Source of the DNA: a virus
DNA length: 64,000 nucleotides
IMG/VR virus record: IMGVR_UViG_3300036790_000551
Coordinates: 28,832-92,831 of that record
Direction: 5' to 3' (one strand)
Below are positions 2,512-48,679 of the stretch, in pieces (the first letter of the stretch is position 1; each line of letters starts with the position of its first letter). The position numbers and the translations under genes are program-made. The notes below the pieces were generated by a model. The model did not search any database and had not been told where the DNA came from. It was given only the letters and a program-made list of their open reading frames with translations.

Positions 2512-2748
2512 ATGGCGTACATTCCCGTGGCTCCCGAACTGGCAGAGAAAAGAGCGAGGCTCCAAGAGAACCTCATTGAGGCCGCTGCGGCTCTTGGACG
2601 AGCGAAGGCCCTCGCCGATGAAATCGGTGTAGAGTTCACTTTCCTGGACCGGACGTACCATCCGAAGCAACAGAAAGTCATCGAGGGCGGTTGGGACTAC
2701 GAAGACGCTGATGACTGGCAGAGTTCCGGTCCTGGGATTGGGTGTTGA
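2512..2748 (+). CDS. Small unknown protein, member 1 of a five-copy local family
   Basis: 78 residues with an N-terminal amphipathic helix rich in Ala, Glu and Lys (ARLQENLIEAAAALGRAKAL), then a strand IGVEFTFLDRTY, and a C-terminal tail WQSSGPGIGC. The layout of helix, aromatic strand and terminal W-x-S-S-x-C returns in the genes at 2786, 3040, 3892 and 4216. No Shine-Dalgarno sequence is evident, but a promoter box sits 5 bases before the ATG, so a leaderless start is plausible. Function unknown. Confidence 0.7.
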   Translation: MAYIPVAPELAEKRARLQENLIEAAAALGRAKALADEIGVEFTFLDRTYHPKQQKVIEGGWDYEDADDWQSSGPGIGC

Positions 2749-2785
2749 TGTGTGGGAGCACATCGGACAGACTGCTCTAGGGTCC

Positions 2786-3040
2786 ATGACCAAGGACGAG
2801 GGCCAGCAGCGAGCCCAGGAACTCTTGAGCCAGGCCGAGAAGTTGGTCCGTGAGGCCCAGGACATCGGCGAACACTTCGGCTTCGACCTCAACTTTCTCG
2901 GTGCCCGCTACGACGGAAGTGATGAGATGTGGAGCGTCACTCGGTTCGAGCATACCGTCGAGTGGTCTTCGTCCTCTTTCTGTATCGAGGACCTCGGCCC
3001 GCAGGACTTCAAGCGTCGGATGGAGGGAAAGAGACCGTGA
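2786..3040 (+). CDS. Small unknown protein, family member 2
   Basis: 84 residues from the ATG at 2786. A longer reading from 2711 is possible but would overlap the previous gene by 38 bases, and the family alignment begins at MTKDEGQQ. It has an N-terminal helix, then GFDLNFLGARYDG, then WSSSSFC. The stop overlaps the next start (TGATG). It is probably co-transcribed with its neighbours. Function unknown. Confidence 0.65.
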   Translation: MTKDEGQQRAQELLSQAEKLVREAQDIGEHFGFDLNFLGARYDGSDEMWSVTRFEHTVEWSSSSFCIEDLGPQDFKRRMEGKRP

Positions 3041-3381
3041 TGGACGATAAAAAGAAGACCGAACTGCAGAAGGAAGCGCAGTCGCTTCTTAGCGAGGCCA
3101 AGAAGTTATTGAATCAGGCAGGAGCGCTCGCTAGTCAGGGCGGCTTCACCCTCCATTTTGCGGGCGGAGGCGACTACATCCCGAAGAAACTCATGAACCT
3201 CGAGTACTGGCGCGCCCTCGCTGTCGAGGAACTCAAGCAGGAGGGAATAGAGGACCCGGATGAAGAGAGGGTCAACGACCTAGCCACCGACATGCGTGGC
3301 GACTGCGACATTCCGTACACGTATCTTGAGTACGCCGATGAGGACGATGGCGACGTCTGGTGGCAGCCCTCAAGTTGCTGA
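3040..3381 (+). CDS. Small acidic unknown protein, family member 3
   Basis: 113 residues with a Lys/Glu-rich helix (KEAQSLLSEAKKLL), the strand GGFTLHFAGGGDYI, an acidic middle, and the terminal WWQPSSC. The ATG shares its A with the previous stop. The inverted-repeat cassette begins 16 bases after its stop, so it was the last gene before the insertion site. Confidence 0.7.
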   Translation: MDDKKKTELQKEAQSLLSEAKKLLNQAGALASQGGFTLHFAGGGDYIPKKLMNLEYWRALAVEELKQEGIEDPDEERVNDLATDMRGDCDIPYTYLEYADEDDGDVWWQPSSC

Positions 3382-3388
3382 GGGGCTT

Positions 3389-3397
3389 GGTTTCATC
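3389..3397 (+). repeat. Direct repeat GGTTTCATC, left copy
   Basis: Left flank of the cassette; identical to 3863-3871. Read as a 9-bp target-site duplication. If the terminal CC/GG pair is counted in the inverted repeat, the duplication is TTTCAT (6 bp). Confidence 0.65.
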
Positions 3398-3420
3398 CAT
3401 GCTTATCCGGTTAACACCCA
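3397..3420 (+). repeat. Left terminal inverted repeat of the cassette
   Basis: CCATGCTTATCCGGTT, then AACACCCA. It pairs with 3841-3864 at 22 of 24 positions. Its ATG (3399) opens a nine-codon frame, M-L-I-R-L-T-P-K-E-stop, that holds the AAGGAG serving the gene at 3433. Confidence 0.75.
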
Positions 3421-3862
3421 AGGAGTGACGTAATGCGCAAGAAAGATGAGCTAGACAAGAAGAACACCTGCATGTCGCACGCCCACTCCAAAGAAATGGT
3501 GTTCGTGCTGCTGAGCCGCGATGCGGCGGCGCCTGTCGCTATTCGTGCGTGGGTCGCCGAGCGCCTGCGGCTCGGCAAGAACGTCGAAAGCGACGAGCAG
3601 GTCGTCGAGGCGCTGGCGTGCGCGCAGACGATGGAAACCGAGGGACGCAAGTGGGTTGGCCATCCCGAGCACTATCCGTTCGGCATGGGTGAGGAATCGC
3701 GGCGGTTGCACCGTGAATACGACCGACTTGTTCGCGAGCAAGCGGCCGGAGCCAAGAATGGCGCAGAAGTCCGCAGGTTGACTGACGAGTGCGAGGCGAA
3801 GGGCATCATCCTTGTCACGGGTGGCGAGAACCTGTGACGTTGGGTGACAACCGGATAAGCAT
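3398..3862. mobile_element. 465-bp inverted-repeat cassette with 9-bp direct repeats, no transposase
   Basis: The left end (3397-3420) begins CCATGCTTATCCGGTT. The right end (3841-3864) ends AACCGGATAAGCATGG. They are inverted copies over 24 positions with 22 matches. The direct repeat GGTTTCATC flanks both sides (3389-3397 and 3863-3871), as expected of a target-site duplication. Removing the insert restores a short leader with GGGAAGGA before the gene at 3892. The single gene inside is not a transposase, so any movement would need an enzyme from elsewhere. One AGCT occurs inside, while none occurs in the flanking tens of kilobases, which supports a recent foreign origin. Confidence 0.7.
3433..3837 (+). 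CDS. Cargo gene of the cassette, unknown protein
   Basis: 134 residues. The N-terminus is charged (MRKKDELDKKNTC). A region with HSKEMVFVLLSRDAAAPVAI and IRAWVAERLRLGKN follows, then a segment rich in Glu and Arg. It is predicted soluble and mixed alpha/beta. AAGGAG lies 8 bases before the ATG. It resembles accessory proteins scattered among unrelated phages, but I cannot assign a fold. Codon choice (GAG followed by CTA, giving AGCT) differs from neighbouring phage genes. It fills almost the whole inverted-repeat cassette. Confidence 0.75.
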   Translation: MRKKDELDKKNTCMSHAHSKEMVFVLLSRDAAAPVAIRAWVAERLRLGKNVESDEQVVEALACAQTMETEGRKWVGHPEHYPFGMGEESRRLHREYDRLVREQAAGAKNGAEVRRLTDECEAKGIILVTGGENL

Positions 3863-3864
3863 GG
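3841..3864 (-). repeat. Right terminal inverted repeat of the cassette
   Basis: TGGGTGAC, then AACCGGATAAGCATGG. It is the inverted partner of 3397-3420 and begins 3 bases after the cargo gene stop. Confidence 0.75.
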
Positions 3865-3871
3865 TTTCATC
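3863..3871 (+). repeat. Direct repeat GGTTTCATC, right copy
   Basis: Right flank of the cassette; identical to 3389-3397. Confidence 0.65.
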
Positions 3872-3891
3872 TACACGGGAAGGATTCACGA

Positions 3892-4212
3892 ATGCCTATG
3901 AAGTCTACGGACAAGCATGAGAAGTCTACGGACAAGCATGAGAAGCACCTACAGACGCTCCTGGTGAAGGCCCAGGAGGCATTGGACGAGGTCAAGCACT
4001 ATGCCGTGCTTCACAACCTGGAGTTCGAGTTCGCAGGCCTCCGTCGAGGCTTGGAGGGTAGAGACTACGGACCCGTCACCCGAGAGGACTTCGGTGGCGA
4101 GGACGATGAGTATCTCCAGCGTGAAATCAAGGCCGGCCGATACAGCGTCAAGGTAAGCAGCCTCGACTTCGATAGCAAATGGATGGGCTCCTGGTCCCCG
4201 GGATGCGGCTGA
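3892..4212 (+). CDS. Small unknown protein, family member 4, with internal duplication
   Basis: 106 residues. Codons 4-17 are two perfect copies of KSTDKHE, encoded by a 21-bp tandem repeat. A helix (VKAQEALDEVKHYAVL), the strand LEFEFAGLRRG and the C-terminal WMGSWSPGCG follow, as in the upstream paralogues. It is separated from them by the cassette. GGGAAGGA is the ribosome site. Confidence 0.7.
   Translation: MPMKSTDKHEKSTDKHEKHLQTLLVKAQEALDEVKHYAVLHNLEFEFAGLRRGLEGRDYGPVTREDFGGEDDEYLQREIKAGRYSVKVSSLDFDSKWMGSWSPGCG
3901..3942 (+). repeat. Perfect 21-bp tandem duplication
   Basis: The unit AAGTCTACGGACAAGCATGA plus G occurs twice in a row and keeps the reading frame (KSTDKHE twice). It lies 30 bases from the cassette's right direct repeat. 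Confidence 0.95.
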
Positions 4213-4215
4213 GCC

Positions 4216-4617
4216 GTGACCGACGATGTTCATGAACCGGGACCTGTCAGACCGCTGACTGCGGTCGAACTCCGACGGGAGGAGGGCCATGCGAAGATGC
4301 AGGCGCTCCTGGTCTCCCTCAAGGAGACCATCGACGTCATGTGGGACGTCGCGACTGAGCACGGCATCGAACGGGTCGAGTTCATGGGAAACTACCTCCA
4401 CTTCGGGACGGACTTCGGGTACGGCAACTGGGACAGTTTCTCTAATCGCTTTGTCAAGACCGAGGATGGGTTCGAGGCCGCTGTCGGCGGTCCGGTTCTC
4501 AACGATGAGTATTGGTCGCAATCCTCCTATGGCTGCTGGATTGATGATAAGGCTCGGGCGTGGATGTGGGGACCTGACCCTGCGAAATGGCGGAAGACGA
4601 GTTACGATGAAGACTGA
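4216..4617 (+). CDS. Small unknown protein, family member 5
   Basis: 133 residues from a GTG 3 bases after the previous stop. It carries a leading acidic tail absent from the others, then the helix (HAKMQALLVSLKETIDVMWD), the strand RVEFMGNYLHFG and YWSQSSYGCW. The Trp-Ser-Ser-Cys element is internal here and is followed by 20 further residues. Function unknown. Confidence 0.7.
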   Translation: MTDDVHEPGPVRPLTAVELRREEGHAKMQALLVSLKETIDVMWDVATEHGIERVEFMGNYLHFGTDFGYGNWDSFSNRFVKTEDGFEAAVGGPVLNDEYWSQSSYGCWIDDKARAWMWGPDPAKWRKTSYDED

Positions 4618-4641: not shown

Positions 4642-5637
4642 ATGCTTCTCATCGGTTCCAAGGCGCTGAGGCTTCGAGGCATCGACACCGGACGGCCGCC
4701 TCTCGACGTCGACGTCATCGCGACCTTCGACGAACTTGGCAAACTCACGCGATGGATGTCGGCCCGCAGTCGGACGGTTTCGATTCCCCTCTCCGTCAAC
4801 AAGACGGTCCTTAAGTCTGTTGATGGAACGATAGTTGAGGTCGAGATTGCCTGGCCGGACACCGCGGCCCACTCCCTCCTCACCGAGGGGAGCGTCTGGG
4901 CCCCTGACGTCAAGGACGACTGGTTGATGTCCGCGAACGGGTTCCCGCATCCGTTCGACGTTCAGGTCGCCACCCTGGACCAACTCTATGCACTGAAGAT
5001 GTCCCATCGGTACCTGAAGAACAGTCCGCACTTCCTGAAGACGATGCGTGACATCCAACTGATGCGGAGCATGGGTGCCAAGGTCGTCAGCGCAGACTGG
5101 CTGAAGCGGCGTGAACTCGAGACCTACACCTACAAGCATCCGAAGTTGAACGTGATGAAGAAGGACTTCTTCACGGGCGACGGCGTCCAGTACGTCTTCG
5201 AACACGACGACATCCACGTCGCGATGGCTCACTTCAGCGGTAAGTGTGGTGACCCTGTTCCTGCCTACACCCTCTACGCTAAGGACGGTGAGCAGGTTAA
5301 GAGCGACAAAGTCAAGTTCCTCTCTCTCTCAGAGGATGTTCGCCTCTACGGCGTCCTCGAGGAGGCCCAGGTCCTGGCCTTGGAGCGCAGCCAGATACCC
5401 TTCCGTGGTAAGGTGGAGGCACGTCGGTCGTTCGACATCGCGCTGATGAAGGTCTGTACCAGCATCACGAGCGGTTGGTTCCGGGAGTATGCCTGGGAGA
5501 ATTTCGACCGCGTGAACCTGCTCTACGAGAACGACTACGTAGAGCGTTTCTGGAGGGCCGTCGACGACGGACACGTGAGGAAGATTGCTGAAGCCGACCG
5601 ACAGGACCCTGTTAGTAACCCACAAAAATTGCCTTGA
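4642..5637 (+). CDS. Nucleotidyltransferase-fold phage protein
   Basis: 331 residues. The N-terminus LLIGSKALRLRG, followed about 11 residues later by P-L-D-V-D-V, is the GS-x-D-x-D signature of Pol-beta-like nucleotidyltransferases. The middle has conserved-looking blocks (DQLYALKMSHRYLKN, HFLKTMRDIQLM) typical of the large-phage members of this group; the substrate is unknown. The C-terminal 150 residues are a separate helical part. It starts leaderless behind the box at 4630 and overlaps the DHH gene by 53 bases. It may modify a tRNA, nucleotide or protein; the sequence does not say which. Confidence 0.65.
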   Translation: MLLIGSKALRLRGIDTGRPPLDVDVIATFDELGKLTRWMSARSRTVSIPLSVNKTVLKSVDGTIVEVEIAWPDTAAHSLLTEGSVWAPDVKDDWLMSANGFPHPFDVQVATLDQLYALKMSHRYLKNSPHFLKTMRDIQLMRSMGAKVVSADWLKRRELETYTYKHPKLNVMKKDFFTGDGVQYVFEHDDIHVAMAHFSGKCGDPVPAYTLYAKDGEQVKSDKVKFLSLSEDVRLYGVLEEAQVLALERSQIPFRGKVEARRSFDIALMKVCTSITSGWFREYAWENFDRVNLLYENDYVERFWRAVDDGHVRKIAEADRQDPVSNPQKLP

Positions 5638-46908: not shown

Positions 46909-47205
46909 CTACGGAAGAATCCCACGAACCAAGCCACCGGGACCCCGGAGGCAGACGTATCGGCAGTTGACAGGTGGGCCGAGGAGGCTGCCACCCACGA
47001 CCGGCTCGTGACCCGGGAGTCCCGGGTGACCGGGCCCGCGGTGGAGCGCCGAGACGGCGGCTATCCTCTGCATCCACTTCCAACCCTCGATGACGGTGTG
47101 GAGGTCAACGGCGTGCAGGTGGACCGTGTCCGCGCGGCCGATGTCTGGACCTCCCGTCACGAGCGGGCAGTCGAACTCCGCCGGGTCCCAGTACTCGACC
47201 CTCAT
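46909..47205 (-). CDS. Unknown protein, uncertain end
   Basis: 98 residues. The ATG shares bases with the previous stop (GCATGAG), which supports translation. MRVEYWDPAEFDCPLVTG and the strand after it look normal; the second half is Gly/Pro/His-rich and may be out of frame. A rightward frame over the same bases lacks a ribosome site. Confidence 0.4.
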   Translation of the reverse strand: MRVEYWDPAEFDCPLVTGGPDIGRADTVHLHAVDLHTVIEGWKWMQRIAAVSALHRGPGHPGLPGHEPVVGGSLLGPPVNCRYVCLRGPGGLVRGILP

Positions 47206-47770
47206 GCTGCTTCGTCGGGAATGTAGAGGTTCGTGTTACAGTCCTTCTTGAGTTCGACCTGGCCGAACGAGCCGGCCCCGTGGTTGCCCCAGTACTTCCG
47301 ACCGTCGAACGGCTTGACGATTAGGTGCTCGCCCCGTCGGGAGGGAATGACGGCCTCGAGCAGGCCGTCGCGCTCCATGTCGAGCTTGAGCACCTCGGTG
47401 CTTGAGGTCGTCTCGTCGACGTCGAACATCCAGAGCTTCCGGTTCGGCGTGGTCACGCCGGCCGCCCGGGCGTACAGCGACTTCATGCCGGCCCAGTTGT
47501 CGGTGAGGGCCGCGTCCACCACGAGCGACGTGAACTGCCGGCCCGTCTGCTTCCATGAGCGGGGAGCCAGGCGGGTGTAGGCCCGGCAGTTGTTCAGGTC
47601 ACAGAGCCTCCGAATGGTCGGAAGCTGCTCGTCAAACTCGCCGCGCCAACGATGCGGAAGCCGTTGTTGCCCTTGGTCTTCGACCGGTCTAGGAGCTCGG
47701 AGTAGACGTACGTGTCCCCGTCGTCGTGCTCGGGAACGAAGTTGCGAACGATTTCAGAGTTGTCCAGCAT
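47202..47770 (-). pseudogene. Frameshifted conserved phage gene
   Basis: The ATG at 47770 follows GAGGAGAGCG and reads MLDNSEIVRNFVPEHDDGDT and on through RSKTKGNNGFRIV, then stops at 47594. The -1 frame continues with WRGEFDEQLPTIRRLCDLNN, CRAYTRLAPRSW, FTSLVVDAALTDNW and LWMFDVDETT through to 47202. Joined, they make one protein of about 189 residues of a type I recall as a conserved phage protein of unknown function. The shift lies near 47650-47690. Missing base or true mutation cannot be told apart here. Confidence 0.65.
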
Positions 47771-48110
47771 CGCTCTCCTCTAGAACTTGGACCGGTACGT
47801 CTTGAATCAGGCGCTTCCACTCCTCGAGGTCACCCCAAGCCAGCTCCACGTCCGAGCGAAGCCAGAGCGTGACCGGGAGCTTGATGCCGGCCCGGACCGC
47901 CGCTTCGTGGCGGTGGGTCCCCGACAGTAACTGGACGCGGCCGTTCAGCGGGTAACCGACGAGGGCCCCGTGTGTCCTGTCGAAGCCGGCCTCATCGAAC
48001 CTCGCGATGAGCATGTTCACCTTCTCGTAGTGATGCGGCTCCCGTAGGTCCAGGCCGTGCGGCGGGTCGCAGTCGGTGGGGTCGAGCCATGTCACGGGGT
48101 GCTTGCTCAC
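47754..48110 (-). CDS. ParB/sulfiredoxin-fold protein
   Basis: 118 residues from GTG overlapping the AlkB-like stop. GALVGYPLNGRVQLLSGTHR, then HEAAVRAG, is the ParB-type nuclease/CTPase core with the S-G-x-H-R-x-x-A pattern. In phages such proteins bind or nick DNA. It lies inside the AGCT-containing segment. Confidence 0.65.
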   Translation of the reverse strand: MSKHPVTWLDPTDCDPPHGLDLREPHHYEKVNMLIARFDEAGFDRTHGALVGYPLNGRVQLLSGTHRHEAAVRAGIKLPVTLWLRSDVELAWGDLEEWKRLIQDVPVQVLEESDAGQL

Positions 48111-48679
48111 GGAACGTACCTCCTGAAGGTGAGAGAGACCCGGCAACCCATCTCACGGTCGCCCTTGGGAATGCGGTGCTGGTGGGTCAGTTGGAATCCC
48201 GGCGGCATGACGAAGACGGAGCCGTTGCCTAGCCGCTGGCGCCACTCTTCCGGGATGACTCCCTTGAAGTCCTTCGGGCGCCACCAGATGTCGCGAGGCT
48301 CCCCGAAGGAGACCACCGCGATTGGATGCTCGTGGAGCATGCCCGGGCTGTCATCGCTGTGCCACCCGAGCTGCTTATGGGCGTCGTCGTAGCGATTGAG
48401 GAAGCAGACGTTGTATTCGTTGAATCCGACGCGAGCCGCCATGTACTTGTTCAACGAGAGTTGAATGTCTTTAACCCAGGTCGAGTAGGCCACGGACGTG
48501 TAGGTGCGGACTCCGCGGCCTACTCCGTACGTGTATTGCTCCCCCGGAGGCTCGGACATGAAACACTCCTGCCGAGCGTCGGTGACCTCTACCCAAGGCG
48601 TGGTTTCTCGAATGGTCTCGAGCGTCACGCCGCGATACACATCGGGAAAATATTGGGGTCTGATTTCAGTGTCCGCCAC
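48107..48679 (-). CDS. AlkB-like 2-oxoglutarate/Fe(II) dioxygenase
   Basis: 190 residues. LNRYDDAHKQLGWHSDDSP gives the H-x-D iron ligands. PIAVVSFGEPRDIWW is the next core strand. VMPPGFQLTHQHRIPK supplies the third His, and CRVSLTFR the Arg that holds oxoglutarate. AlkB enzymes remove alkyl groups from bases; a phage copy may repair damage or strip host methylation. It has one AGCT and lies in the foreign-looking segment. Confidence 0.8.
   Translation of the reverse strand: MADTEIRPQYFPDVYRGVTLETIRETTPWVEVTDARQECFMSEPPGEQYTYGVGRGVRTYTSVAYSTWVKDIQLSLNKYMAARVGFNEYNVCFLNRYDDAHKQLGWHSDDSPGMLHEHPIAVVSFGEPRDIWWRPKDFKGVIPEEWRQRLGNGSVFVMPPGFQLTHQHRIPKGDREMGCRVSLTFRRYVP

Follow-up and report, generated by a model that had tools for sequence, protein, structure and literature searches.

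The DNA analysed here, called the window, is a 64,000-nucleotide stretch of a 92.8-kb viral record that carries phage-type ribonucleotide reductase, thymidylate synthase, and DNA polymerase. Near the start of the window, a 466-bp element with a single passenger gene sits among small paralogous genes and runs in the same direction as they do. Its features are as follows.

3398..3863, plus strand: whole element, 466 bp, very probably a non-autonomous mobile insertion cassette of the IS1595 family (from its ends, its duplication, and family comparison)
3390..3397, no strand: left copy of the 8-bp target-site duplication, GTTTCATC, an exact match to 3864–3871 and of the length seen across the family
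3398..3421, plus strand: left terminal inverted repeat, on the 5' side of the cargo, CATGCTTATCCGGTTAACACCCAA, supported by the right repeat and the family consensus
3422..3425, plus strand: Shine-Dalgarno GGAG, abutting the terminal repeat, 7 nt 5' of the ATG
3433..3837, plus strand: passenger gene P0001, 134 aa, function unknown (open reading frame [ORF]; relatives in four phage contigs and in cassette L238)
3449..3452, no strand: AGCT, a tetramer nearly absent from the rest of the window
3840..3863, minus strand: right terminal inverted repeat, the complement of CATGCTTATCCGGTTGTCACCCAA
3864..3871, no strand: right copy of the target-site duplication, GTTTCATC
CATGCTTATCCGGTT: a stretch within the terminal repeat of the element

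The 24-bp inverted ends are identical at 22 of 24 positions, as the initial annotation of this DNA had described. That annotation also reported a 9-bp direct repeat, GGTTTCATC. The nine letters are indeed present at 3389–3397 and 3863–3871, but they are not the duplication: the duplications of the relatives are exactly 8 bp, so the duplicated sequence is GTTTCATC, and the terminal repeat extends through the G at 3863. The insert given earlier as 474 bp is 466 plus 8. The cargo, a single ORF, does not code for a transposase, in agreement with what had been proposed. Its start codon lies 36 nt from the left end, just 3' of the GGAG, and its stop codon 26 nt before the right end. No second intact copy of the element was found in the phage record.

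The role of the 134-aa protein can only be inferred. A Pfam search gave no match, and the one match among the PHROG families is weak (label transcriptional regulator, E = 0.003). Over its N-terminal 75 residues, the protein is a member of a small conserved family (FVLLSRDAAAPVAIRAWVAERLRLGKN) with relatives in four phage contigs, where they stand without these ends, and another relative is carried by an independent cassette (L238; 38% over 50 residues). Neither the protein nor the DNA of the element found a match among 50,697 phage records, and the protein had none in isolated phages. A structure model of P0001 is helical, with a mean pLDDT of 64.7 and a pTM of 0.38, which is too poor for a fold search; no relative with a solved structure was found.

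The genes around the element form a tandem array at 2512–4617 that encodes five or more small proteins of weak similarity (about 28–30% to the first), and the element is inserted after the third and before the fourth. The gene downstream of it has a perfect 21-bp tandem duplication at its start (3900–3941), which adds seven residues. The tetramer AGCT occurs 8 times in the whole window against 169 expected, once in the element (3449) and seven times within 47383–48369. The foreign AGCT signature that had been claimed for the element is thus a real mark, but a weak one (n = 1), and the GC content is alike (element 60.5% vs 61.4%). GATC is fully absent from the window (0 against about 222 expected), and the strong avoidance of both GATC and AGCT is perhaps restriction avoidance. 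The AGCT-bearing segment 47383–48369 is probably another recent foreign segment; no terminal repeats of the IS1595 type were found around it. On the minus strand, 47202–48679 holds an AlkB-like DNA repair gene (48107–48679, phrog_21963) and a 130-aa ORF of unknown family (47754–48146). Elsewhere, 44347–44361 matches the 15-base core of the ends with one mismatch (CATGCCTATCCGGTT); AGGAG and a 33-aa ORF with a GTG start come next. This partial end may belong to a decayed second cassette, but no right end rises above chance.

Elements with these ends were sought with a query made of the 15-base core plus an inner motif. Three versions of the query found 23, 103, and 85 stretches of viral contigs, and a reversed end pattern, used as a control on the same contigs, found 0. 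With 103 viral stretches found for the ends and none for their reversal, the ends in the window are not due to chance. Bacterial and archaeal genomes gave 43 stretches, many of them copies in one strain of Cupriavidus necator, while the ends are absent from INPHARED (isolated phages) and PLSDB (plasmids), where matches reached only 16–17 bases. The 106 unique elements extracted, which fall into 77 sequence clusters, were selected for duplications with 7–8 of 8 bases identical, and almost all have an exact 8-bp duplication. In a count not selected in this way, 66 of 99 nearest convergent end pairs have an 8/8 duplication, compared to about 1% with shuffled flanks. The insertions show 52 distinct duplication sequences, which favour a palindromic pattern like GTTCGAAC, and the consensus end of the family is CATGCYTATCCGGTTGaCACCCA.

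Most of what these ends enclose is not a transposase. Among the viral clusters, 65 carry a passenger ORF of at least 60 aa, 3 carry a transposase, and 1 has no such ORF; the bacterial and archaeal clusters comprise 2 with a passenger, none with a separate transposase, 5 without an ORF of at least 60 aa, and 1 with a transposase fragment. The Cupriavidus insertion sequence (IS) was assigned to a shared cluster in this count, and a few of the passenger ORFs may be miscalled. Since fixed end motifs determined which elements were sampled, these counts are not prevalences. In Pfam and PHROG searches, the cargo includes several kinds of DNA methyltransferase, Mom, a PAPS-reductase-like protein, MazG, RNA ligase, DHH phosphoesterase, DUF1643, nucleoside deoxyribosyltransferase, radical SAM and HTH proteins, and many unknowns. 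The flanking genes fall into 123 PHROG families, with replication genes the commonest and DNA methyltransferase, integrase, and terminase also present; because of these families, the carriers look like phages. The viral status of the contigs rests on IMG/VR and on these flanking genes.

The same ends also point to the enzyme family that recognises them. One element with these ends (L018) codes for a transposase with the domains PF12762 (DDE_Tnp_IS1595, E = 7e-34) and PF12760 (E = 4e-7), both above the cut-off, and tblastn matched the transposase in other full-length elements. The nearest named insertion sequence is ISAcr1 of Acidiphilium (IS1595-like), with 64% protein identity and ends (CTTGCCTATCCGGTT) that have 2 mismatches to the 15-base core on both sides. 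The family thus resembles ISAcr1 and other IS1595 elements in its PF12762 plus PF12760 transposase, its 8-bp duplications, and its similar ends, and by these marks it belongs with IS1595, although the transposase is found in same-ended relatives and not in the window copy, whose ends differ from those of ISAcr1 at 2 of the first 15 bases. No IS1595 transposase was found in the 92.8-kb phage record, which may be incomplete. More widely, 12 of 50 cassette-bearing viral records contain a transposase and 38 lack one, and these records may be incomplete as well.

The cassettes share a uniform layout: an end, a Shine-Dalgarno sequence, a start codon, the ORF, and a stop codon that often lies inside the other end. 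In 60 cassettes with a clear ORF, the start codon is 24–60 nt from the end in 52, and a Shine-Dalgarno sequence precedes it in 45 (24 of 31 in an earlier subset), compared to 14% of random 14-nt windows within the elements that hold such a word. A GGAGCTA leader is common to 13 of the 60 and never occurs on the other side. The stop codon is inside the terminal repeat in 23 of 60 (e.g., TGACAACCGGATAAGCATG), as it is in most transposase copies. A TTGACA inside the 5' end with a -10 box 17 nt further on is seen in 7 of 18 transposase copies but in none of the 60 cassettes (p = 1e-5), and no sigma-70-like promoter match was found in the window region. The cargo points in the direction of the neighbouring or interrupted genes in 28 of 35 cases, according to a crude codon-model gene caller. 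This caller replaced a longest-first ORF caller that was uninformative, with 86% of random points inside an ORF. Of the insertion sites, 18 of 27 are inside a called ORF compared to 81% of random positions, so avoidance of genes is not clear. The simplest reading of this anatomy, which rests on sequence features alone, is that the cassettes would be translation units without a promoter of their own, reliant on whichever operon they enter.

Members of the family have moved. The same 765-bp methyltransferase cassette (L034 and L089, 78% identical) occurs at unrelated sites with different duplications, and the homology between the two ends about 7 bp beyond the element. In L029, the same 485-bp sequence is found with and without a 1191-bp element, and the empty copy, which could be a second allele in the assembly, has exactly one GGTCGGAC. 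At about 80% identity, L235 is the empty site of the L072 cassette. One 117-kb record, IMGVR_UViG_3300050119_000104 (L035, L094, L098, and L100), has 26 ends and about 13 copies of an element of ~240 bp with varied duplications and no long ORF, along with one IS1595 transposase. In L027, two different cassettes lie in tandem at 3538–4588 with GAAAGAAC three times, between them and on both flanks. Other members bear on origin. In the L141 cassette, the last residues of the transposase form the end of the ORF, and the final DNA of the ORF matches the transposase gene at its 3' end, with the stop codon in the repeat included; the ORF of L233 has a relative in the passenger gene of L016, an element that also bears a transposase. 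These two cases support a route from insertion sequence to insertion sequence with passenger to cassette, though the order is inferred.

Because the same ends enclose the gene of an IS1595-family (ISXO2-like) transposase in some elements, the window element is very probably a non-autonomous mobile insertion cassette (MIC) of this family, that is, a phage gene with its own ribosome-binding site between IS1595-type repeats and without a transposase. Its ends, its duplication, the family of the cognate transposase, the mobility of members, the anatomy, and the lack of a promoter match are all read from sequence comparison. The initial annotation had proposed a non-autonomous mobile element with a single cargo gene, and the family with the same ends and varied cargo bears this out. 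It had looked for support in the same ends around different cargo, which the family provides, or in an empty site with one copy of the duplication, which L029 provides at 100% identity. It knew of no named element of this form, but the form does have a name, MIC, here of the IS1595 family. For the window copy itself, the enzyme that moved it has not been seen, and no empty site for the exact insertion is available: the best neighbour protein at its site is only 47% identical, and the relatives of 4642–5634 are too distant for deriving one.

How could such a unit move? As the phage record has no transposase, mobilisation in trans is inferred, with an IS1595-family transposase supplied by another phage, a prophage, or the host. 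The enzyme would recognise the CATGCYTATCCGGTT ends, excise or copy the unit, and insert it with an 8-bp duplication, preferably at GTTCGAAC-like targets. The promoterless gene would then be expressed by landing in a transcribed phage operon, usually along its direction; the ribosome-binding site beside the end would start translation, and the stop codon inside the other end would often close the ORF. Such a cassette may have arisen when an IS1595 element gained a passenger gene and later lost its transposase and promoter. The order of these steps and any benefit to the phage are likewise inferred, and transposition itself has not been observed.

The element could instead be the dead remnant of an old IS1595 insertion: its transposase would have been replaced, leaving an ordinary phage gene that is fixed between fossil ends. 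A record without a transposase or a second intact copy would fit this. However, ends that are still 22/24 intact, a perfect duplication, and an AGCT in a phage purged of it elsewhere speak of a recent arrival, and members of the family have moved recently (L034/L089 and L029). This explanation is unlikely, though it deserves to be kept in mind. It is highly improbable that the small protein is an unrecognised transposase or recombinase and the element autonomous and ultra-small, like the mobile elements of mycobacteriophages (MPMEs). The 466 bp and the one-ORF layout do resemble MPME1 (439 bp, PMC3029335), but more than 60 unrelated proteins, most unlike P0001, occur between the same ends and 8-bp duplications, as does a genuine DDE transposase, and relatives of P0001 exist without the ends. 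In addition, MPME insertions come with 6 extra bp of unexplained origin, placed between left repeat and target (PMC3029335); none are seen here. Capture by site-specific recombination, whether integron-like or by homologous exchange at repeated ends, has the single-gene form and the tandem cassettes of L027 in its favour but is hardly credible, as the 52 distinct target duplications are those of DDE transposition rather than of integron or homologous recombination and no integrase is tied to the ends.

The MIC reading can be set beside known systems. Integron gene cassettes are promoterless single-gene mobile units as well, but they use an integrase at attC/attI and insert without a target duplication; here a DDE transposase and 52 distinct 8-bp duplications are found. 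The first MIC to be reported was MIC231 of Bacillus cereus, which has the ends of IS231 (De Palmenaer 2004, cited in PMC3129680). MICs consist of IS ends around a passenger gene, lack a transposase, and can be mobilised in trans by a related IS. The window element matches them in the IS ends around non-transposase passenger DNA and in the missing transposase; for movement in trans the signs are only indirect, namely family cassettes at different sites with different duplications and an empty site. The family differs from MIC231 in its IS1595 origin, its phage carriers, its many unrelated cargoes, its ribosome-binding site at one end, and the stop codon often inside the other. Transporter ISs are copies of IS1595 that carry additional passenger genes (Siguier 2009, cited in PMC3129680); L016, L021, and others with these ends likewise have a passenger gene beside the transposase, but the cassettes lack both the transposase and its promoter. 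MPME1 and MPME2, the ultra-small mobile elements of mycobacteriophages, are also phage-borne and of about 440 bp, with one small ORF and inverted ends. They have a fixed single gene and the 6-bp addition at one end, and the passage of PMC3029335 that describes them reports no link to IS1595; the duplications here are clean, without extra bases. No report of IS1595-type cassettes in phages was found in the open literature, with subscription papers outside this coverage. MICs and passenger-carrying IS1595 elements are thus known from bacteria, and the phage-borne promoterless family appears to be undescribed.

It has long been asked how phages gain single extra genes whose borders are clean. The same ends around more than 60 different genes in environmental phages suggest a general way to pick up single genes. 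One could go further and consider a pool of IS1595-ended promoterless cassettes, shared among phages and mobilised in trans, which would act like a transposition-based counterpart of integron cassettes and be a main source of morons, especially those for DNA modification and anti-restriction. This wider proposal is tentative, falling a little short of an even chance. The mechanism is at least concrete and searchable, with short ends, exact duplications, a known transposase family, and a fixed architecture of ribosome-binding site and stop codon, and a transposase-plus-cassette pair can be tested by experiment. With more than 60 cargo families, mostly unknown proteins and DNA-modification enzymes, the ends may also be used as a handle for finding new counter-defence genes.
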